A stretch of 55,756 nucleotides of DNA from Verrucomicrobiaceae bacterium E54 (GTDB lineage Bacteria; Verrucomicrobiota; Verrucomicrobiia; Verrucomicrobiales; Akkermansiaceae). The notes beneath the pieces were generated by a model. It had not been told where the DNA came from. It saw only the letters and a program-made list of their open reading frames with translations, and made no database searches. The position numbers and the translations under genes were made by a program. Position 1 is the stretch's first letter, and the number at the start of each line of letters is the position of its first letter. Where the stretch lies: the NCBI GenBank assembly GCA_022548915.1, contig JAKZES010000035.1, forward strand, positions 1 to 55,756, given 5' to 3'. Below, one piece after another: positions 13,664 through 36,256 of this stretch.

Positions 13664-17257
<3,594 letters not shown>

Positions 17258-17421: not shown

Positions 17422-18831
17422 ATGCCCGAAGACGTCATTCATTTCTCCTGCGGCAGCTGCCACACAAAGCTCACGGTGCCCTCGAAGCTGGCGGGGGTGG
17501 AGGGCCCCTGCCCCAAGTGCGGTGCCACCATCCGCGCGCCCCGGGCAGAGCCCACGGTCCAGGCACCGGCCCAAGCCGCCCCTCCCGAGCCCGCCGCGGA
17601 ATCCGCGCCTCGCCTCCAGCCCGGCACCCTGCCGGAGCGTCGCAGACCGGCCAATGCCGTTCCGGAATCCGAGAATGAACGCATCCGCCCGGAACCCCGC
17701 GAACTCCCGGAACGCCCGGCCCGCGGCGGGGTGAGCCCCCGCCACAGCACGGCGGACGTTTCACGACGCCCGGCGCCAAAGGCCGAGCGTTCCTCCGGCC
17801 CCTCGCGCAAGAGTTCCGGACTCCAGCGTGTCCTGGTCCCGCTCCTTTTTTTGTTCCTCGGCGGGGCGCTTGCCTACATCCTGCTGAATTCCTTCCTCGG
17901 CACCCAGAATTCTGATCCGACCGCTGGGAACCCCCCTACTGCATCCGATCCGGGACCAAATCCAGCCCCGGCGGGAGATCCCGCAGCGGCGGCCGCGAAC
18001 TCGGGAGGGAACTCCGGAACCGCCACACCGCTCCCGCCCGAGGATCTCGACCCGGCCGACGGCCAGGAAGCCGAAGACGTGCTCCGCGCCTTCCTGCGCG
18101 CCTCCTCGATCGGGGCGCGCTTGCCCCTGATCGAACCCGTCTACGAACGCGAGGAGCTCACCGGCTCGGTGATCGACACGCCACTGCTTTCCGCCGACCG
18201 GATCACGCCGGATGCCCCCAACCGCAATTCGCTCGAGAACTTCGTCGACCACCCCTTCCGGGTGCGCTTCGAGCAGACCGACGCGGAGCCGTTCACCAGC
18301 CTGGTCATCGTCCGCAAGCGCGCCGGCCAGAAGGCCCGGGTGCTGATCGATCCGGTCCTCGACCTCCTCGGCGGCCGGCTGGCGGCCTTCGCCGCGGAGC
18401 CCTCCGATGAGCCGCAGACCTTCCGCGCCGTGATCGAGGCGATGCCGCGCTGCTTCGAGGAAGGGGTCCCGAACCCCGACGACAAGATCACCTACAAGCT
18501 CTCGTCGAGCACCCACGGCGGCGAGATCGCCCGCGCCTACGCCTCAAAAATGTCGCCGCTGGCCGAGATGCTCTACTCGCCCGACTCCGCCCTGCGCTGG
18601 GGAAAACGGGTCCCCGCCACGGTGACCCTGCGCTGGAACCGGGAGGAGGCACCCGGCAGCAGCACCCCCGTGGCCCCGGGGGAACCGGATGTTGAAGAAG
18701 ACGGGCCCGGCGAAGAGCAACCGGCGACCGGAGATGAACCCGCTGTCGAAGCGACGCCGACGCCCGAAGCGGACCCGGGGCAGCCCTACCTCGAACTCAT
18801 CGAGATCAAGAGCCTGGACTGGAGCCCTTGA
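17422..18831 (+). CDS. Zinc-ribbon single-pass membrane protein, unknown function
   Basis: This protein has about 469 residues. It opens with a zinc-ribbon: C-G-S-C, then about 18 residues, then C-P-K-C. A long Pro/Glu/Arg-rich linker follows to about residue 135, then one transmembrane helix (V-L-V-P-L-L-F-L-F-L-G-G-A-L-A-Y-I-L-L, about 138-158), then a second Pro/Ala-rich linker. A folded domain of about 220 residues has no motif I recognise, and an acidic tail ends the protein. The zinc-ribbon would be cytoplasmic and the C-terminal domain periplasmic. ATG 17422 is preferred over GTG 17413. The last 26 bases overlap the end of the convergent rhodanese gene. No function is assigned. Confidence 0.85.
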   Translation: MPEDVIHFSCGSCHTKLTVPSKLAGVEGPCPKCGATIRAPRAEPTVQAPAQAAPPEPAAESAPRLQPGTLPERRRPANAVPESENERIRPEPRELPERPARGGVSPRHSTADVSRRPAPKAERSSGPSRKSSGLQRVLVPLLFLFLGGALAYILLNSFLGTQNSDPTAGNPPTASDPGPNPAPAGDPAAAAANSGGNSGTATPLPPEDLDPADGQEAEDVLRAFLRASSIGARLPLIEPVYEREELTGSVIDTPLLSADRITPDAPNRNSLENFVDHPFRVRFEQTDAEPFTSLVIVRKRAGQKARVLIDPVLDLLGGRLAAFAAEPSDEPQTFRAVIEAMPRCFEEGVPNPDDKITYKLSSSTHGGEIARAYASKMSPLAEMLYSPDSALRWGKRVPATVTLRWNREEAPGSSTPVAPGEPDVEEDGPGEEQPATGDEPAVEATPTPEADPGQPYLELIEIKSLDWSP

Positions 18832-19282
18832 CCAGCCCGCCCTGCCGCAGCGCGGTCATGCCGCCCTGCAGGACCAGGATTTCTCCCGGAACGAGGCCGA
18901 TCTCGCGCAGTCCGTCGGCCAGGTCGTGGCTCAGGGAACAATGCAGGTCGTCGCAGTAAACGACCACCCGCCCGGCATCGGCCAGCTCGTCGAGGTGACG
19001 CTCCACCTGCGCCATCAGCGGCTCATCCGAGAGGATGGTCAGGTGAATTGATCCCTCAAGCCCGTCGCTCTTCCACGCCGACTCCTTGCGGGCATCGACC
19101 CAAAGGATGCCCTCGAGCCCGCCTTCGACGAGGGTCGCCAGGCGCACCTCGCCGGGCCGGAGCGGCGCCGCGGCCAACTCCTTCTCCGGCATGCCCGAGG
19201 GGCTGCCCCCGGCCATCCAAGTGCCCAGGCTCGCCGCCACGGCAACCACCCCGATGACCGCCACCTCGATCGAACTCTTCAT
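18806..19282 (-). CDS. Membrane-anchored rhodanese-like protein
   Basis: This is a 158-residue protein with an N-terminal hydrophobic helix (about 5-25) and one rhodanese domain. The domain shows W-V-D-A-R near residue 61 and the active-loop segment V-V-Y-C-D-D-L-H-C-S, with Cys110 in the catalytic position; the Arg usual in the loop is Cys115. Rhodanese domains carry persulfide sulfur on this Cys. It is the last gene of the sigma-factor operon. Its ATG overlaps the DUF1573 stop by 4 bases (19279-19282), and it ends tail to tail with the zinc-ribbon gene. Donor and acceptor are unknown; a periplasmic sulfur or redox role is inference. Confidence 0.85.
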   Translation of the reverse strand: MKSSIEVAVIGVVAVAASLGTWMAGGSPSGMPEKELAAAPLRPGEVRLATLVEGGLEGILWVDARKESAWKSDGLEGSIHLTILSDEPLMAQVERHLDELADAGRVVVYCDDLHCSLSHDLADGLREIGLVPGEILVLQGGMTALRQGGLVKGSSPGS

Positions 19283-19956
19283 GGCTCGACCGGCTTTCTC
19301 ACGAGCGCAAACGCCCGCTGACTCGAATAGCGGCTGCTTTCGGCATCCGTGCGGATCTGGATTACCCCGAGCGCCGGCTTGGACACCTCGACCGGAGTGA
19401 CGTGAAGTTCGTAGGCCTTGCCCTTTTCGAGGGTCTTCAGCTCCGTGGTGAATTTCTGATTTCCCGGCTCGACCGACAGCACGTGGATCGGTTTGTCGTG
19501 ATTCATCGTGATCGAAATGACCTGGGTCGTCGGTTCACCCGCGGCATCGACGTCCCACCGCACCGTCTTGGGTTCGATCTCGACCAGCACCGGGATGTGG
19601 ACGCGGGTCGTCAGGGTGATGGAGGGCTCCCCCGCCGGGTCGCCCTTGAGCCACAGGCGCACCGATTTATCCACCTCGCCGGAGAAATTCCCCATGTCGA
19701 AGATCGCGCGGATGGTCCCCTTCTCACCCGGTTCGTAGCGCAGCTTGCCGCCCTTGACCTTGACGTTCATGCACGAGCAGGTCGATTCGTAGCGGGCGAT
19801 GGTGATCGCCCCGTCGGTGTCGTTGCTGAACTCGAAGTCGCAGGTCACTTCCCGCTGATCATGGCCGGCATGGACATCCTTGAGTTTCGTTTCAAAGCTC
19901 AGCCCCGCCGAAAGCGGGAGCGGCAGAAACAGCACGCAGAGGAGAAGCGCTCTCAT
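19279..19956 (-). CDS. DUF1573 secreted protein
   Basis: This 225-residue protein starts with a clear signal peptide (M-R-A-L-L-L-C-V-L-F-L). ATG 19956 is chosen because upstream in-frame residues look non-coding. The DUF1573 domain, an immunoglobulin-like beta-sandwich family, shows the typical N-D-T-D-G-A-I-T-I followed by S-T-C-S-C, which places two close cysteines on the first strands. The second half looks like another beta-sandwich. DUF1573 proteins are envelope proteins of unknown role. It begins 8 bases after the upstream gene and is coupled to the rhodanese gene by a 4-base overlap. Confidence 0.87.
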   Translation of the reverse strand: MRALLLCVLFLPLPLSAGLSFETKLKDVHAGHDQREVTCDFEFSNDTDGAITIARYESTCSCMNVKVKGGKLRYEPGEKGTIRAIFDMGNFSGEVDKSVRLWLKGDPAGEPSITLTTRVHIPVLVEIEPKTVRWDVDAAGEPTTQVISITMNHDKPIHVLSVEPGNQKFTTELKTLEKGKAYELHVTPVEVSKPALGVIQIRTDAESSRYSSQRAFALVRKPVEP

Positions 19957-19964
19957 CGGGCGCA

Positions 19965-20462
19965 CTATGGACCCGACCCGGGTGGGGGCGCAAGTTCGAC
20001 CGCCACGATCAGGCGTCCGCCGCGCCACTCCGGACCCAGCACCAGCACCGGCTTGCCGTGGGTCAATGCCATGCCCGACTTGAGGATCTTCTTGCGGCTC
20101 AGCCACAACTCGAGATCGAGCCGCATGGTGTCGCGGGAAATCACGCTCTCGGTCTCAAAGCGGCACAGGATCTCGTCGCTTCCCTTGATCGGCTGCGCCC
20201 AGTTCTCGTAGCTGCGATAGACCTTCTGGCGATCGGACCCGAGCAGGCGGTAGTGCGTGAACTCCAGGGGCTCGTGCCGGCGCAGCTGTTCGGCCGTGGC
20301 GGCCGGGACCTCCGTCGTCCGCTCACCGGCCTTCGCCGGATCGTCGTTGGTGCCGAAATACACCACAACCTCGACCTCACCCACGGCCTCCTTGCCGCGA
20401 TCCGCCGCCGCTGCCGCAAGCGGCACCATCAGCGTGATGAGGAGCGTGGAAAGGAATCTCAT
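19965..20462 (-). CDS. Secreted protein of unknown function in the sigma-factor operon
   Basis: This 165-residue protein has a signal peptide ending A-A-A-A-A-D. The mature part is mainly beta, with V-E-V-V-V-Y-F-G-T-N-D-D near the start and paired strands later (M-R-L-D-L-E-L-W-L-S; P-V-L-V-L-G). I do not recognise the family. The start at 20462 overlaps the anti-sigma stop by 4 bases, and DUF1573 follows after 8 bases. Its position suggests an envelope component controlled by the sigma factor; this is inference from context. Confidence 0.8.
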   Translation of the reverse strand: MRFLSTLLITLMVPLAAAAADRGKEAVGEVEVVVYFGTNDDPAKAGERTTEVPAATAEQLRRHEPLEFTHYRLLGSDRQKVYRSYENWAQPIKGSDEILCRFETESVISRDTMRLDLELWLSRKKILKSGMALTHGKPVLVLGPEWRGGRLIVAVELAPPPGSGP

Positions 20463-21046
20463 CGCACGTCCTGGTCGTCTTCTTCCTCGCCGTGATTGGC
20501 CATCCGGCTCGGCTCCGGTTCGAGCATCGCCGTTTCGGGAATCTCCCACTCGTCGGGAATCGCCTGAACGCCGGCCAGCACGATCACCGAAGCCTCGTCG
20601 CCCCCGACGAACTCGGCCTGCACCCCACGCTCGGGGGTGTAGAGGACGGGTGCGAGCTCGGCGGCCACCGGTGGCGTCGCTTCCGGCACACCACCCCGGT
20701 CGTGGCCGAGGAAGAACCCCAGGGCCACCCCGGCCGCGGCCGTCGCCGGCATCACCCACAGCCACGGTCCGCGGCGGACCTTGCCGGGCTCGGGGGTCGG
20801 CCCGGCTGCGGGCGCGGAAAGCTCGATCTCGCGGCGGATGCGGGCGTTGAAGAACTCGGCGTGCGGCACCTCGTCTTCGCCTCCCAGGGCGGACCCCAGG
20901 AGTTCGCGGCTCCAGCGTGCCTGCTCGCGGCGTTCGACCCACTCGGGCTGCTCGCACGCCCAGCGCTCGACCTCGGCGGAGGCTTCGGCATCCAGTTCGT
21001 CCTCGACCCACAGGGCCAGGAGTTCGTCATCGGGCTTCGTATTCAT
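20459..21046 (-). CDS. Putative transmembrane anti-sigma factor
   Basis: This 195-residue protein follows the ECF sigma gene with a 20-base overlap (21027-21046). Residues 1-75 are acidic and helical, starting D-D-E-L-L-A-L-W-V-E-D-E-L-D-A, as in the N-terminal part of many anti-sigma factors. A single membrane helix covers about 94-114, leaving a C-terminal periplasmic tail. The H-x3-C-x2-C zinc motif of the ZAS group is absent, so if it is an anti-sigma factor it is of the zinc-free type. The assignment rests on gene order, topology and the D-E-L-L start. Confidence 0.75.
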   Translation of the reverse strand: MNTKPDDELLALWVEDELDAEASAEVERWACEQPEWVERREQARWSRELLGSALGGEDEVPHAEFFNARIRREIELSAPAAGPTPEPGKVRRGPWLWVMPATAAAGVALGFFLGHDRGGVPEATPPVAAELAPVLYTPERGVQAEFVGGDEASVIVLAGVQAIPDEWEIPETAMLEPEPSRMANHGEEEDDQDVR

Positions 21047-21662
21047 CCTTCAGGAGTGATTGGAGTTTCTGGCGGGCGTAGTGCAGGCGGCTCATCACCG
21101 TGCCGATGGAACAATCCATCACTTCGGCGATTTCCTTGTAAGCCAGACCCTGCACGTCCTTCAAGATCACGACTTCGCGGTGTTGCGGCGAAAGCTGGTC
21201 GAGGGCGGCCTCGATCTTCACGCGCAGCTCACCGTCGCGCATGGCATCATCGGGCCGCCTCTCGGCCGCCGGCGTCGTCGTCGAGGCCGGATCGATCGAC
21301 CCGGAGCCGAAGATCTCCTCGTTGAGCTCGCCCCCGCCCGCTTCCGGGCGCTTGCGGCGCGCCCAGTCGTAGACGGTGTTGTGGGCGATGCGGTAGAGCC
21401 AGGTCGAGAACTTCGCCTTCACCTCGAAGCGTGGCAAAGCCTTCCACGCCTTGATGAAGGCCTCCTGCGAGAGGTCCCAGGCGTCGGCTTCGTTTTTGGT
21501 CATCTGGCGAATCATGGCGAAAATCCTGCCCCGGTGACGGGTCACCAGTTCGTCGAACGCGGCGGAGTCACCCGCCTGCGCCTGAAGGACCAGCACCTCG
21601 TCGGCCGGCTCTTCGCCAGCCTCCGGGGATCCTTTCGACGCAGATGACTCGGATTTATTCAT
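21027..21662 (-). CDS. RNA polymerase sigma factor, ECF type
   Basis: This is a 211-residue sigma-70 family protein with only regions 2 and 4. Region 2 (about 30-105) shows D-E-L-V-T-R-H-R-G-R-I-F, D-L-S-Q-E-A-F-I-K-A-W and F-S-T-W-L-Y-R-I-A-H-N. Region 4 (about 150-205) shows L-S-P-Q-H-R-E-V-V-I-L-K and the helix-turn-helix Y-K-E-I-A-E-V-M-D-C-S-I-G-T-V-M-S-R-L. A Thr/Pro/Ala-rich linker of about 40 residues joins them. GGAAG lies 4 bases before the ATG. It heads a five-gene operon that ends with the rhodanese gene, and is presumably held by the next gene's product. Confidence 0.95.
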   Translation of the reverse strand: MNKSESSASKGSPEAGEEPADEVLVLQAQAGDSAAFDELVTRHRGRIFAMIRQMTKNEADAWDLSQEAFIKAWKALPRFEVKAKFSTWLYRIAHNTVYDWARRKRPEAGGGELNEEIFGSGSIDPASTTTPAAERRPDDAMRDGELRVKIEAALDQLSPQHREVVILKDVQGLAYKEIAEVMDCSIGTVMSRLHYARQKLQSLLKDEYEAR

Positions 21663-21791: not shown

Positions 21792-22226
21792 TCAGCCATC
21801 GCGCAGCGGGTGACGCCAGTCCAGCAGCGGAAAGCGGGCAAAACCCGAATCGGTGCTGAACCAGATGGCGCCGGCCTCGATCGCGAGCGCGGCGTGGTAG
21901 GCATCCGGAATCAGGTTTCCCTTGGCGCCCACCGCCTCGCAAAGCGAAGTGAATATTCTCCAATGCTCCTTCCCCGGAGCGAGCAGATGGAGGCCGGTAT
22001 GCCGACGAAGCCGTTCGCAGAACGCGAGGGCGAGTGGAAGAGGCGTCGGGTCGCGGAACGCTTTCGGATGGGTCACGACCCGGAGAAAGCCGGACAACAC
22101 CAACTCCGACACCGCGCACAACTCCGGCGCGTCGAGCTGCGACTCGAGCCAGTCGCGATAGGCCGCATGATCCGGCGAGTCCTCGCGGTGCGCATAGACG
22201 AGGACGTTGACATCGAACAGTTTCAC
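21792..22226 (-). CDS. vapC: PIN-domain toxin (VapC-like)
   Basis: This 144-residue PIN-domain protein is a probable Mg-dependent RNase acting as the toxin of a type II toxin-antitoxin pair. The acidic residues expected at the metal site are present: Asp5 (L-F-D-V-N-V-L-V-Y-A), Glu41, Asp108 (I-P-D-A-Y-H-A-A-L-A) and Asp126 (S-T-D-S-G-F). It overlaps the antitoxin gene by 4 bases (22223-22226). The RNA target is unknown. The 129 bases between it and the sigma gene hold no further gene. Confidence 0.92.
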   Translation of the reverse strand: MKLFDVNVLVYAHREDSPDHAAYRDWLESQLDAPELCAVSELVLSGFLRVVTHPKAFRDPTPLPLALAFCERLRRHTGLHLLAPGKEHWRIFTSLCEAVGAKGNLIPDAYHAALAIEAGAIWFSTDSGFARFPLLDWRHPLRDG

Positions 22227-22462
22227 CGGGTCTCCATCAGGTCGAGCAACGCGGCATTATTGTCGAGATCCACACCGTCCTGAAGTCCACGGCCTCCGTA
22301 GGTCGGGAGCGGTTCGACAGGCGTCGGGGCATCGGCCGGACCGCGACTCAGCAACATCCGCAGCCCCTCGGCCACCAACTCGCCCAGCGTGCGGCCTTCG
22401 GAAAGCGAACGCTCGCGCGCCTCCTTGAGCAGGGCATCGGGTATGTTGACCGTCGTTCTCAT
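22223..22462 (-). CDS. vapB: Antitoxin (VapB-like, ribbon-helix-helix)
   Basis: This 79-residue protein begins M-R-T-T-V-N-I-P-D-A-L-L-K-E-A, the beta-strand plus helix pattern of ribbon-helix-helix DNA-binding antitoxins. The region from about residue 45 is Pro-rich and probably extended, suited to wrapping the toxin. It would neutralise the PIN toxin and, with it, repress its own promoter. The start codon lies only 7 bases from a good -10 position and there is no Shine-Dalgarno sequence, so the message may be leaderless. Confidence 0.88.
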   Translation of the reverse strand: MRTTVNIPDALLKEARERSLSEGRTLGELVAEGLRMLLSRGPADAPTPVEPLPTYGGRGLQDGVDLDNNAALLDLMETR

Positions 22463-22546: not shown

Positions 22547-23713
22547 TCACCCGGCCGCCATTCGCCCGGCCGCCTCGCCGGTGGCGAAGCAGGTGCCCAT
22601 CACGCGGATCGAGGCCTGGGCCTCGTGGTCGCAGGAAATGCAGCGCCCGGCGACGAACAGCCGCTCGAAGCCCTTCGCCCGCAGAGCTCCCGCCGGAATT
22701 CCCGCCGAGCGCCCCTCGTCCGGGTAGCGCAGCTTCGGGCCGCGGTTCGACTCCCGCATCTCCATCGGCCACGCGGCAAAGGCCACATCGTCGTCGTGGG
22801 TGGTGCCGGAAATCACCTCGTCGCCGGTCAGGCACGCCTCGCCCTGCCAGCGGCGGCTTTCGCGCACCCCGGCGCGCACCGGCCAGTGGGCCACGTAGGC
22901 CTCGTCCCAGCCCGGCTGATGCTCACGAAAATACCCGATGATCTCCCGGGTGATGGCCCGACCCGTGGACTCCAGAGCCGAGAGGCAGGCCGGATCCGTC
23001 GGGTCGTAGCGGCCCGTTTCCTCGCCGGCGAGATCGAGTGTGCCGAACACCTCGCCCGGGCGGCCGCTGCTGCGGAAATGCATGCCCATGGCGGACTTCG
23101 GCAACTCGCCGGCCCGCACGCCCTCGACGATTCGCCCGGCAAGCTCCAGACCGGAAAGCTCTCCGTTCACGCCTTGCACGCCACACACGTAGGCGGGCCG
23201 CTGGAGGCGCTCGGAGGGGGTCCGCTCATCCGTCAGGCGGAGCAAGGCCGCCGCCACCGCATCGCCGCTGGCATCGACCACCGCCGCCGCTTCGATGTCA
23301 AAATGCCCGCCCCGACAACTCGCCTGCGCCCGCCACCCGGGCTCCAGCGAGATCAGCTCGCTGTGGAAAAGGCATTCCACCCCCGCCTCGCGGACCATCG
23401 CGTCGGCGATCGAGGCAAAGTCCACCGGATGCTGCGGCAGCACCCACAGGCGCCCCATCTTCACCGGACCCCGCCCGGTCGCCACCTTCATGCGGTCGGC
23501 GATCTCGACCGGGAGTCCTTCGTTGGCATGCTCCGGCCCCTCGCGATCCATCCGGTAGAGTCCGCAGAAGGTGTGCACCAGCGAGGCCGTGCCCATGCCG
23601 CCGAGCATCCCGTGGCGCTCGACCAGCACCACCTTCGCGCCGGCCCGTGCCGCGCTCACCGCGGCGGCCAGCCCGGCACTTCCGCCCCCGATCACCAGCA
23701 CGTCCGCCTTCAT
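22547..23713 (-). CDS. FAD-dependent oxidoreductase (PF12831-like)
   Basis: This 388-residue protein starts with a dinucleotide-binding fold (V-L-V-I-G-G-G-S-A-G-L-A-A-A, residues 5-18) and ends in C-I-S-C-D-H-E-A-Q-A-S, then G-T-C-F-A-T-G-E-A-A-G. The C-terminal pattern is usual for the FAD_oxidored family. V-V-D-A-S-G-D-A lies mid-protein. It should bind FAD and oxidise or reduce a small molecule that is not identified. Its ATG overlaps the stop of the acyl carrier protein gene by 4 bases (23710-23713), so the two are made together, and the substrate may be carrier-bound. That last step is inference. Confidence 0.88.
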   Translation of the reverse strand: MKADVLVIGGGSAGLAAAVSAARAGAKVVLVERHGMLGGMGTASLVHTFCGLYRMDREGPEHANEGLPVEIADRMKVATGRGPVKMGRLWVLPQHPVDFASIADAMVREAGVECLFHSELISLEPGWRAQASCRGGHFDIEAAAVVDASGDAVAAALLRLTDERTPSERLQRPAYVCGVQGVNGELSGLELAGRIVEGVRAGELPKSAMGMHFRSSGRPGEVFGTLDLAGEETGRYDPTDPACLSALESTGRAITREIIGYFREHQPGWDEAYVAHWPVRAGVRESRRWQGEACLTGDEVISGTTHDDDVAFAAWPMEMRESNRGPKLRYPDEGRSAGIPAGALRAKGFERLFVAGRCISCDHEAQASIRVMGTCFATGEAAGRMAAG

Positions 23714-23952
23714 CGCCGCGAATTGATCGTCGCCACCATCCGCGCCGGCGTGCCCAGCGTCTCGCGCCCGACATCCCCGGCGCCGAGCACCACCCCCCAG
23801 CGTTCCTCGACCACCACGATCAGCTGCATCACCGCCATCGAGTCCATCCCGGCCTCGAAGAGGTCCGTCTCCGCCCCGGCATCCGCCGGGAGTTCGACGA
23901 GCTGCTCCTCGCCCAGCATCCTCAGAACGTCATCGACTGCACAATCCACCAT
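23710..23952 (-). CDS. Acyl carrier protein (orphan)
   Basis: This 80-residue protein with the four-helix carrier layout has the phosphopantetheine attachment site T-D-L-F-E-A-G-M-D-S-M, with Ser38 modified. It ends in a helix with T-L-G-T-P-A-R-M-V. The L-F-E-A-G-x-D-S form resembles free-standing carriers for amino acids or unusual acyl groups (DltC-like) as much as the fatty-acid ACP. No ketosynthase, adenylation enzyme or acyltransferase is adjacent. It lies 48 bases downstream of an MFS gene and overlaps the FAD oxidoreductase by 4 bases, all on the same strand. Confidence 0.9.
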   Translation of the reverse strand: MVDCAVDDVLRMLGEEQLVELPADAGAETDLFEAGMDSMAVMQLIVVVEERWGVVLGAGDVGRETLGTPARMVATINSRR

Positions 23953-24000
23953 GCTGCTGGCTGAGTTTCACCATCGCCATCCGCCGGGAACCTGACTGCG

Positions 24001-25449
24001 TCAAACCACGGATTTCTCATCCGGCGACGCCGCCTCGGCCACGTCCTCCTCGTCGGCATCGGCGACCCGGATCTTGTCCCAGAAGGAGAGGAAGAACAGA
24101 ACCGCGATCCCTCCGGCGATCAACGCCGGCAGAATCCAGAACTCCTTCCACTGCTCCATCGTGCTGGTCAGCAAGTCGGGATCGACCCCGTCCGGCATGT
24201 CCATGGAAAACATCTGGCCGAGCTGTTGCAGGAAGCTGCTTTCTTCAGCACCCCGGATGCCCTTGATCTGCGCCTCCAGCGGAACAAATCCGGAGACGCC
24301 GCCGCCCCAGCCGGAAAAGTCGACGTTCATCCCGAAAAGCTTGCTCGGCACCTGGTACATCACCCCGAAGGCAATCGCGTAGCCGACATACATCCCGATG
24401 CCCTGGGTGAAGAAAACCAGCATGCTCTGCGCCTGGCTGCGAACTTTCTTCGGCGCCACCTTGTCGGTGTACATGAAGCCGGTGACGAAGAAGAAGTCGT
24501 AGCAGATACCGTGCAGGGCCACGCCGAGGAACAGCATCCACACAATCTGATCCGGTGCCCCGAAGGCGAAGAGAAGGTAGCGGGCGACCCACGCCAGCAT
24601 GCCGACCAGGATCATCCACTTCACCCCGAGCCGGCGGAAGAAGAACGGGATCAGCAGCATGAAGATGATCTCGGACATCTGGCCGATCGTCATGGTCGAT
24701 GCCGGCTGCAGGAACCCGGTGTTCTGGAGATAGTTGGATGTCAGCCCGTAGTAGTAGGCCAGCGGCACGCAGATCAGCATCGAGCAGATCATGAAGACCG
24801 CGAAGGCCGGGCGCTTGAAAAGCCCGAAGGCATCCACCATCAGCAGCGCGCGCAGGTTCACCGGCTCGCCCTTGGCCGGAGCCGGGGTGTGGGGCAGCAC
24901 GAAGGAAAAGGCGCCGAGCACGAGCGAGGCCGCTCCCGCGAGGTAAAACATGCTGAACTTCGCCGACCAGCCGAGGATCCCGACCACCAGCCCCGCCGCG
25001 ATCCAGCCGATCGTGCCCCAGACCCGGACCTTGGGGAAGGCGATGCGGTCGAGATGGCTGAAGGCCACCGAGTTTGCCAGCCCGAGCGTCGGCATGTAGG
25101 TCAGCATGTTGCCGATCATCAACCACACCATCAGCTCGCCATTCCCGGCCGCCGCCGCATTCGGAATCGCCAGCAGCAGCGCCCCGCCGATCAGGAACAG
25201 CACCCCCATCACGATCTGCGAGGGGAAAAAGCGGTCGGCGATCAGGCCGAGGAAAAGCGGCGCGATCATCGCCCCGATGGGGGCCGAGCCGTAGGCACCG
25301 CCCGAGAAGGCTCCAAGCTCGTTGCTGCCGAGGCAGAGACCCAGGGTGGCAAACCACGCCCCCCAGACGAAAAACTGCAGGAACATCATCACCGACAAGC
25401 GCATCGTCGGCCCGCCGTGGCCTCTCTCGTTCTCCATGCGCGACATCAT
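24001..25449 (-). CDS. MFS transporter of the nucleoside:H+ symporter (NupG-like) type
   Basis: This 482-residue protein has about 12 hydrophobic helices. The start M-R-L-S-V-M-M-F-L-Q-F-F-V-W-G-A-W and the first-loop pattern G-L-I-A-D-R-F-F match the nucleoside permease/xanthosine symporter group common in verrucomicrobia and planctomycetes. A long loop rich in Met and Gly lies near residue 380-430 before the last helix, and the C-terminal tail is acidic. It sits in the inner membrane; the actual substrate may be a sugar or nucleoside. It is the first gene of the MFS-ACP-FAD unit and is divergent from another MFS gene across 202 bases. Confidence 0.88.
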   Translation of the reverse strand: MMSRMENERGHGGPTMRLSVMMFLQFFVWGAWFATLGLCLGSNELGAFSGGAYGSAPIGAMIAPLFLGLIADRFFPSQIVMGVLFLIGGALLLAIPNAAAAGNGELMVWLMIGNMLTYMPTLGLANSVAFSHLDRIAFPKVRVWGTIGWIAAGLVVGILGWSAKFSMFYLAGAASLVLGAFSFVLPHTPAPAKGEPVNLRALLMVDAFGLFKRPAFAVFMICSMLICVPLAYYYGLTSNYLQNTGFLQPASTMTIGQMSEIIFMLLIPFFFRRLGVKWMILVGMLAWVARYLLFAFGAPDQIVWMLFLGVALHGICYDFFFVTGFMYTDKVAPKKVRSQAQSMLVFFTQGIGMYVGYAIAFGVMYQVPSKLFGMNVDFSGWGGGVSGFVPLEAQIKGIRGAEESSFLQQLGQMFSMDMPDGVDPDLLTSTMEQWKEFWILPALIAGGIAVLFFLSFWDKIRVADADEEDVAEAASPDEKSVV

Positions 25450-35634: not shown

Positions 35635-35856
35635 GTGAAGACGACGATCGATCTTCCGGAGGCCCTGCTTGAGAAGAGCAAGGTCGCAGCGGCAAGGCGC
35701 CGGACGACCCTCAAGAACCTGGTCATCGAAGGCCTGGAAACCGTGCTGGCGGCGGATGAGGCAATTGCCGACCCTACCGCCGCCCTCGAGCGCCTTCAGC
35801 ATGGCTATCGATTGGGAGGAAAGCCCCTGACTCGCGAAGAGGCACATGCCCGCTGA
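35635..35856 (+). CDS. vapB: Antitoxin (VapB-like)
   Basis: This 73-residue protein starts M-K-T-T-I-D-L-P-E-A-L-L-E-K-S, a ribbon-helix-helix type N-terminus, followed by R-R-T-T-L-K-N-L-V-I-E-G-L. The C-terminal third (Y-R-L-G-G-K-P-L-T-R-E-E) should bind the toxin. GTG at 35635 is the start, since no upstream in-frame ATG fits. Its stop overlaps the toxin start by 11 bases. It is not closely similar to the antitoxin at 22223. It probably represses its own promoter. Confidence 0.88.
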   Translation: MKTTIDLPEALLEKSKVAAARRRTTLKNLVIEGLETVLAADEAIADPTAALERLQHGYRLGGKPLTREEAHAR

Positions 35857-36256
35857 ACGGTTCATCGACACCAACATCCTGCTCTACGCCTACGATCTCG
35901 ACGCCGGCGAGAAACGGGAGACGGTCCTCCCCCTGATTCGGGCGGGCTGGGAAATGCCCGGCCTGAATGCGATCAGCGTCCAAGTGCTGCAGGAGTTCTA
36001 CGTGAACTTCGTGCGCGTCGGTCGTTCCCACCGGGAAGCCTTACAGATCATCCAGGACCTGACGAAATGGCCTGTGGTCGATAATTCCCTTGAGCGTCTC
36101 GGCCAGGGTCTGGCGCTCAAGGAACGTCATCAGGTCTCCCTCTGGGATGCCATGATCATCGTCGCCGCCCAAGCCAGCGGAGCCCGCGAACTGATCACCG
36201 AAGACCTGAATGCCGGACAGAACTACGACGGTGTCATCGTCGTCAATCCGTTCTAA
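35846..36256 (+). CDS. vapC: PIN-domain toxin (VapC-like)
   Basis: This 136-residue PIN-domain RNase has its acidic site visible: Asp8 (F-I-D-T-N-I-L-L-Y), Glu50 (V-L-Q-E-F-Y), Asp101 (S-L-W-D-A-M-I) and Glu119/Asp120 (L-I-T-E-D-L). It is the toxin of the pair with the preceding gene, coupled by an 11-base overlap. Codon use here is less GC-biased than in the DUF1501 gene upstream, in keeping with the mobile nature of such modules. The RNA target is unknown. Confidence 0.93.
   Translation: MPAERFIDTNILLYAYDLDAGEKRETVLPLIRAGWEMPGLNAISVQVLQEFYVNFVRVGRSHREALQIIQDLTKWPVVDNSLERLGQGLALKERHQVSLWDAMIIVAAQASGARELITEDLNAGQNYDGVIVVNPF

Follow-up and report, generated by a model that had tools for sequence, protein, structure and literature searches.

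What does an acyl carrier protein (ACP) do when its gene overlaps that of a flavoenzyme and no ketosynthase stands next to it? This question is raised by a locus in Verrucomicrobiaceae bacterium E54 on contig JAKZES010000035.1 (assembly GCA_022548915.1), of which the whole stretch of 55,756 nucleotides was analysed and is here called the window. The locus comprises an ACP gene, a gene for a flavin adenine dinucleotide (FAD)-dependent oxidoreductase, hereafter the FAD enzyme, and a gene for a carrier of the major facilitator superfamily (MFS). We consider it likely that the ACP and the FAD enzyme form a detached, conserved module of a type II ketosynthase (KS) pathway resembling those for aryl polyenes and flexirubins, i.e. 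for a membrane pigment lipid, the rest of which is located on four further contigs. The pair is conserved in related genomes, is physically linked to pathway genes in some of them and co-occurs with the KS and its chain-length-factor (CLF) partner, and we regard its functional link to the KS/CLF pathway with good confidence. The best reading of its role is that of a redox module acting on an ACP-bound pathway intermediate.

The carrier-flavoenzyme pair and its conservation

The first-pass annotation of the window had described three neighbouring genes on one strand, and these are real, the strand, which it had left out, being minus:

22547-23713, minus: FAD-dependent oxidoreductase, 388 aa, predicted partner of the ACP; PF12831, 254.9 bits (cut-off 27)
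23710-23713, minus: four-base overlap of ACP stop and FAD start, read from the sequence
23710-23952, minus: ACP, 80 aa; PF00550, 33.9 bits (cut-off 20.8)
23839-23841, minus: codon TCG of the ACP attachment serine, Ser38, inside D-S-M
23953-24000, minus: gap of 48 bases between MFS and ACP, read from the sequence
24001-25449, minus: nucleoside-symporter-like MFS gene; PF03825, 313.6 bits (cut-off 25.9); judged to lie outside the conserved unit

The gap, the position of Ser38 and the overlap are all as first described. The range originally given for the unit, 23710-25449, covers the MFS and ACP genes; of the FAD gene it includes no more than the initial four bases. The PF12831 profile spans residues 4-387 of the FAD protein and thus nearly its full length.

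Of the 195 genomes searched from the same family, 37 gave matches to the FAD protein (E<=1e-40). Among 30 family loci drawn from this search, the window's own included, 28 have the ACP gene immediately upstream of the FAD gene, which upholds the expectation that the pair is conserved among relatives; the two loci without it (L036 and L037) end at contig ends. When 32 loci were viewed in wider context, an ACP-family gene was called in all but two, L042 and L047, the latter with an unassigned 82-aa gene at the ACP position, and in L043 the ACP is present with two opposing genes between it and the FAD gene. Additionally, a scan of named genomes for the FAD gene yielded 80 loci, 65 close and 15 distant. 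Among the 30 called adjacent ACP-FAD pairs of the named loci, 20 have the exact four-base overlap, and two further pairs could have it with an alternative start codon. As 20 named loci are the same DNA as family loci, the two sets are not independent. DNA present under two identifiers (L236/L173, L241/L184, L040/L175, L065/L134, L068/L135, L044/L148 and L041/L186) was counted once, and L041, in which no FAD gene was called, was dropped from the 32 contexts, the pair being visible in the same DNA as L186. Genes in the relatives were called by a simple codon-usage caller, and small genes may be missed. Conservation of the pair with overlapping frames fits the initial suggestion of redox chemistry on a carrier-bound substrate.

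The close loci reside in Haloferula, Luteolibacter, Prosthecobacter, Chthoniobacter and others, with two in metagenome-assembled genomes labelled Nitrospirota and Binatia, and the scan thus supports the Verrucomicrobiota setting. In the tree of FAD proteins, 23 ACP-FAD pairs including that of the window form one clade (99/98), apart from the condensation-fold operon group described below. The 15 distant loci, at 27-30%, belong to Bacillota, Synergistota and one Chloroflexi. Among these, gut Bacillota homologues (L200, L201, L203, L204, L205 and L207; about 28%) show a recurrent order of a 487-aa gene, the FAD gene and a 186-aa gene, and no ACP was called beside the FAD gene in these six loci.

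The transporter had been proposed to bring in or export the small molecule concerned. An MFS-family gene occurs within seven genes of the FAD gene in 3 of the 32 contexts, and in the other two (L056 and L057) a 422-aa gene lies between MFS and ACP; since this gene is absent from the window, the tight MFS-ACP spacing is not shared. Not being conserved beside the pair, the MFS was rejected as a pathway member. The closeness and common direction of the three window genes would suit stand-alone carrier chemistry, in which the MFS imports or exports a small molecule modified by ACP and FAD enzyme independently of KS/CLF; given the lack of conservation of the MFS, and the co-occurrence and linkage of the FAD gene with the genes for CLF and for an LPG_synthase_TM protein (see below), we find this very unlikely.

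Ser38 is invariant in 15 aligned ACPs, and a gene of the phosphopantetheinyl transferase superfamily (PF01648, over the cut-off) is present on contig C66 of the same genome. The window ACP is 39% identical to a paralogue on contig C199, 28% to a second ACP on C193 and 22% to an AcpP-like ACP on C225. Its best NCBIfam models are of the DltC (D-alanyl carrier protein) type, all below cut-off, and an assignment as DltC was rejected, with 35.2 bits against a cut-off of 68 for PRK05087 and 24.6 against 52.35 for another curated DltC model. That the ACP is a displaced housekeeping fatty-acid ACP has its membership in the PP-binding family in its favour and nothing more; with a separate AcpP-like gene at 22% identity, and DltC-type models as the nearest, we give this practically no credence, and the ACP is distinct from the housekeeping one, as first supposed.

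The AlphaFold2 model of the FAD enzyme has a mean predicted local distance difference test score (pLDDT) of 95. Among the matches listed by VIA, the model appears closest to the geranylgeranyl reductase-like 3oz2 (Z 20.0, 277 aligned residues, 4.1 A), and further close folds among those matches are MnmG/GidA, urocanate reductase and flavocytochrome c fumarate reductase. Several enzymes of these folds perform C=C redox reactions, and the model-based matches fit a dehydrogenase or reductase role, falling short of proof. Two ways of naming the reaction were rejected: sequence matches to solved relatives fall mostly on the N-terminal nucleotide-binding stretch, and by fold the Foldseek TM-scores are 0.36-0.47 to many flavoproteins, with 50 VIA matches spanning just Z 17.4-20.0.

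Pathway genes in relatives and in the same genome

In some relatives the pair adjoins pathway genes. Four relatives of the same genus (L062, L065, L066 and L068) have a KS and a CLF-like KS upstream of ACP-FAD; in L065 nothing separates them from the pair, and in L062, L066 and L068 a single small opposing gene intervenes. L068 also has an adenosine monophosphate (AMP) ligase and a FabZ-like dehydratase. L039 and L040 hold a single block of AMP ligase, KS, CLF, short-chain dehydrogenase/reductase (SDR), second ACP (ACP2), LPG_synthase_TM protein (flippase-like; TM hereafter) and ACP-FAD, and the order in L044 is ACP2, TM, patatin, ACP, FAD. Larger clusters with the FAD gene are found at L236 (same contig as L173), L238 and L241 (same contig as L184), and the clusters of relatives include LolA, MMPL, methyltransferase, acyltransferase and halogenase-like genes, although some clusters lack one or more of them. 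Such KS-linked relatives are a minority, most of the 32 contexts having no KS within seven genes. The aligned KS of six relatives keeps Cys169, His303, His340 and Lys335, residues whose functional roles we presume. Divergent from the ACP2-TM-patatin-ACP-FAD block of L044, an 816-aa protein with a C-terminal PF12831 domain is encoded at L044:10651-13101.

In the genome that holds the window, the corresponding genes do not form one cluster and are spread over five contigs, the pair's own included; the other four carry:

contig C189: FabZ-like dehydratase, AMP ligase, KS and CLF-like KS, with an acyltransferase nearby
contig C193: ketoreductase (SDR), ACP2, TM protein and patatin
contig C199 (L054:9949-13935): patatin, ACP paralogue, condensation-fold protein and AMP ligase in a row
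contig C238: MMPL transporter and LolA

The KS and CLF genes stand in tandem on C189. In the alignment the KS keeps the Cys and the His, which are replaced in the CLF by Gly and Glu, respectively, and the CLF scores just under the Pfam ketoacyl-synt cut-off (19.3 vs 20.8). The LolA gene is cut by the contig end and reaches 42.2 of 125 bits on LolA2_flexi, below cut-off, and the best NCBIfam model for the MMPL is HpnN, also below cut-off. Among solved structures, the AMP ligase of C199 is nearest to benzoate-CoA and feruloyl-CoA ligases. The first-pass observation that no ketosynthase, adenylation enzyme or thioesterase is adjacent is correct for the immediate neighbours in the window and does not extend to several relatives or to the whole genome. 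The genes for KS and its CLF-like partner, for AMP ligase, dehydratase and ketoreductase, and for the second ACP and the flippase-like protein adjoin the pair in some relatives and occur on further contigs of the same genome, so that neither the description of the ACP as an orphan nor the proposal of a self-contained new pathway is supported.

Co-occurrence was assessed in two sets of genomes. The first was a panel of 46, comprising 33 of the 37 genomes with the FAD gene from the family search and 13 of the 158 without it, hand-picked from the same family; G116, G133, G150 and G154 were left out as fragmentary or incomplete. In the panel, CLF and TM were each found in 31 of 33 FAD-positive genomes against 0 of 13 FAD-negative ones, and the condensation-fold gene in 15/33 against 0/13. 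The second was a class-wide sample of 286 genomes overlapping part of the panel, with the FAD limit (E<=1e-100) chosen after a gap had been seen in the list and CLF counted at E<=1e-20, weak CLF matches possibly being other CLF-like genes. Here the FAD gene was present in 31 genomes, and CLF in 28 of these 31 against 66 of the 255 others. As the genomes are related, the p-values for this contrast (Fisher, 2.5e-12) and for the count by genus (CLF in 14/15 vs 41/122; 1e-5) are both too small, with independence overstated. Of the 28 genomes with both genes, 11 have them within 20 kb on one contig. Since genomes with the FAD gene almost always carry KS/CLF as well, and CLF-like genes are often present where the FAD gene is not, the pair appears to be an accessory to a wider pathway.

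A further arrangement bears on the origin of the split. Chthoniobacter-like and some Prosthecobacter-like genomes have the order ACP, condensation-fold, FAD, AMP ligase, and in many cases a Trp-halogenase-like flavoprotein comes next. Upstream of the FAD gene, an ACP is found in 39 and a condensation-fold gene in 9 of the 59 close loci with at least 1.8 kb of upstream sequence, and an AMP ligase follows downstream in 27 of the 62 close loci with enough downstream sequence. The C199 row has the ACP, condensation-fold, AMP ligase order of these other families, minus the FAD gene, and the simplest reading is that the FAD gene moved away together with a copy of the ACP. Two copies of the condensation-fold protein were tested and have no Pfam match; HxxxDG is present in 8 of 9 aligned copies, with HxxxDA in that of C199, and a model of the Chthoniobacter flavus protein (pLDDT 78.7) matches AzeD as well as condensation and cyclisation domains of non-ribosomal peptide synthetases (NRPS). 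In L171, a small gene pair lies upstream of the FAD and AMP ligase genes.

The shared gene order, with C199 matching it minus the FAD gene, could indicate that the pair serves the NRPS-like C199 set (patatin, ACP paralogue, condensation-fold protein and AMP ligase) and not KS/CLF, the co-occurrence with KS/CLF then being indirect. We hold this to be unlikely, as the condensation-fold gene is found in just 15 of the 33 FAD-positive panel genomes against 31 for CLF.

Known pathways and the predicted chemistry

The gene composition, as far as sequence can indicate, resembles that of aryl-polyene or flexirubin pathways. In common with the aryl polyene (APE) cluster of E. coli CFT073 (apeA-R; PMC8253772, as its excerpted text gives it), the present set has a KS with a chain-length-factor partner, more than one ACP, a ketoreductase, a dehydratase, an acyl-activating ligase, an acyltransferase, an MMPL/RND transporter and LolA. 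With phmmer, homologues were obtained for ApeD (LPLAT), ApeQ (SDR), ApeE (ACP2), ApeM (MMPL), ApeL (LolA) and ApeO/ApeR (KS), so that among ketoreductase, dehydratase, ACP, ligase and acyltransferase only the ketoreductase, ACP and acyltransferase match E. coli proteins directly. The same comparison with the E. coli ape genes gave no match here to ApeC, ApeH, the dehydratases ApeI and ApeP or the methyltransferase ApeB, and none in the APE cluster to the LPG_synthase_TM, condensation-fold, patatin or ACP1 proteins; a 253-aa protein of relatives has no match to E. coli ApeG, and a tentative ApeG label was not used. The gene table of PMC8253772 and the annotation list no FAD enzyme for the E. 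coli cluster, whereas one is present here, and the genes are scattered here, unlike those in E. coli. The KS scores 143 bits against ApeO and 161 against ApeR, compared with 145 and 215 for the FabF of the same genome (TIGR03150, 607 bits, cut-off 494), and it fails the ApeO subfamily PRK09185 (275 of 407 bits), which E. coli ApeO passes with 556. Membership in the E. coli APE lineage was rejected on these grounds, i.e. the failed PRK09185 and the missing matches for ApeC, ApeH, ApeI and ApeP. As only some of the ape genes have homologues here and the KS is no closer to ApeO than FabF is, the pathway is best described as working like the APE kind, with no assignment to that lineage.

The flexirubin cluster of Chitinophaga pinensis (flxA-Y), as far as described in the consulted portion of PMC3992019, shares the type II polyene logic with ligase, KS, reductase and dehydratase, and a term search of that paper for FAD or oxidoreductase gave no occurrence. 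Its starter is coumarate, supplied by the ammonia-lyase FlxA (PMC3992019), whereas the genome studied here has no PF00221 protein. The SDR reaches 201.6 of 340 bits on FlxB and scores higher on FabG (239.7), and the LolA of a relative has LolA2_flexi as its best NCBIfam model, at 73.7 of 125 bits and below cut-off.

For carrier, adenylase and FAD oxidoreductase working on a carrier-bound substrate, a published precedent exists in the Dob hydrazone/diazo pathway (DobQ/DobC/DobM; PMC13061610, partial text). In this pathway an adenylase loads a discrete carrier protein, the authors think that an FAD-dependent oxidoreductase oxidises the carrier-bound substrate, and a polyketide synthase is proposed to take the substrate on (PMC13061610). 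The genome-mining set of that paper, in its available part, has PF01266 and other families and not PF12831, and we treat the Dob system as a working analogue of the ACP-FAD pair, claiming no relatedness. No ACP/PF12831 pair was described in the titles and abstract openings searched, a survey that misses most subscription papers.

By the preferred reading, a pathway AMP ligase would charge the Ser38 phosphopantetheine of the ACP with a carboxylic acid, and the acyl group thus tethered would undergo a two-electron C-C/C=C redox reaction catalysed by the FAD enzyme. KS/CLF, together with ketoreductase and dehydratase, would then extend the product, or the redox step would come after elongation, and the lipid may be exported by MMPL/LolA. 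The site of the redox step could lie in the starter, in the chain or in the head group.

Besides the relatedness of the genomes sampled, several observations weigh against this reading. The FAD gene occurs without a CLF being found in G053 and G163 and without TM in G135 and G163 of the panel, as well as without CLF in G325 and G384 of the class sample, where, moreover, a looser FAD limit of 1e-60 gives CLF in 30 of 39. A Prosthecobacter-like group has FAD and AMP ligase genes, often with a halogenase-like gene, and no ACP was found beside them (L159, L162, L163, L171, L172, L176, L179 and L189 have neither an ACP nor a condensation-fold gene nearby). As the parts lie on different contigs in the genome studied here, their partnership is deduced from other genomes. 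The predicted fold does not fix the reaction of the FAD enzyme. The dehydratases, CLF and ligase have no match among the E. coli ape genes, and neither PF00221 (ammonia-lyase) nor PF04345 (chorismate lyase) was found in the genome, which is 97.5% complete.

Within the same pathway, the pair may instead act late: the ACP would take over the completed chain or head group, which the FAD enzyme would tailor by desaturation, reduction or ring hydroxylation before an acyltransferase or the condensation-fold protein passes it to a lipid anchor. We regard this as possible and somewhat doubtful. The larger clusters, which place the FAD gene beside the condensation-fold protein, AMP ligase, Trp-halogenase-like flavoprotein and methyltransferase, speak for such a step, whereas in genus g13 the condensation-fold gene is present in 2 of 15 panel genomes and the FAD gene in 15 of 15, so that a condensation-fold transferase cannot be the general acceptor step. 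With PF00221 and PF04345 absent, an aromatic starter, if any, is unexplained, and a starter role is slightly favoured over late tailoring. A more specific and rather improbable proposal is that ACP-FAD and AMP ligase constitute a new starter-unit route, in which an acid loaded on the discrete ACP would be dehydrogenated by the PF12831 flavoenzyme to a conjugated starter, replacing ammonia-lyase or chorismate-lyase. If true, this route would mark out a lineage of KS/CLF pigment pathways in Verrucomicrobiota, and a PF12831 oxidoreductase would gain a defined role on a carrier.

Significance and further genes of the window

Read as a detached module of the KS/CLF pathway, the apparent orphan becomes a testable pathway. 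KS/CLF, the flippase-like protein and ACP-FAD occur together across Verrucomicrobiota, yet they are scattered in many of the nearest genomes, where tools based on clustering may miss them. Functional literature on PF12831 is sparse among the papers searched, a single one giving the accession, and a carrier-bound substrate would give the family a defined assay. Among Verrucomicrobiota, Oceaniferula flavus is a yellow isolate with an antiSMASH aryl-polyene call (PMC9865893). Luteolibacter soli is also yellow, and the antiSMASH classes given in the excerpt of PMC11427321 do not include aryl polyene. Since carotenoids are reported from Rubritalea (PMC3967232), yellow colour by itself proves nothing.

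Just downstream of the FAD gene, a VapC/VapB-like toxin-antitoxin pair is encoded on the minus strand (21792-22226 and 22223-22462), which among the 32 contexts is beside the FAD gene in two close relatives only. Further along, an extracytoplasmic function (ECF)-type sigma factor gene and four small genes (18806-21662, minus) each recur close to ACP and FAD in 8 to 10 of the 32 contexts. Elsewhere, a small-gene pair is located at 35635-36256 (plus), the downstream gene having a PIN domain (PF01850, over the cut-off) and the upstream gene no Pfam match. A very long gene at 13664-17257 (minus) presumably encodes a protein resembling pyruvate:ferredoxin oxidoreductase, judging from its translated open reading frame.

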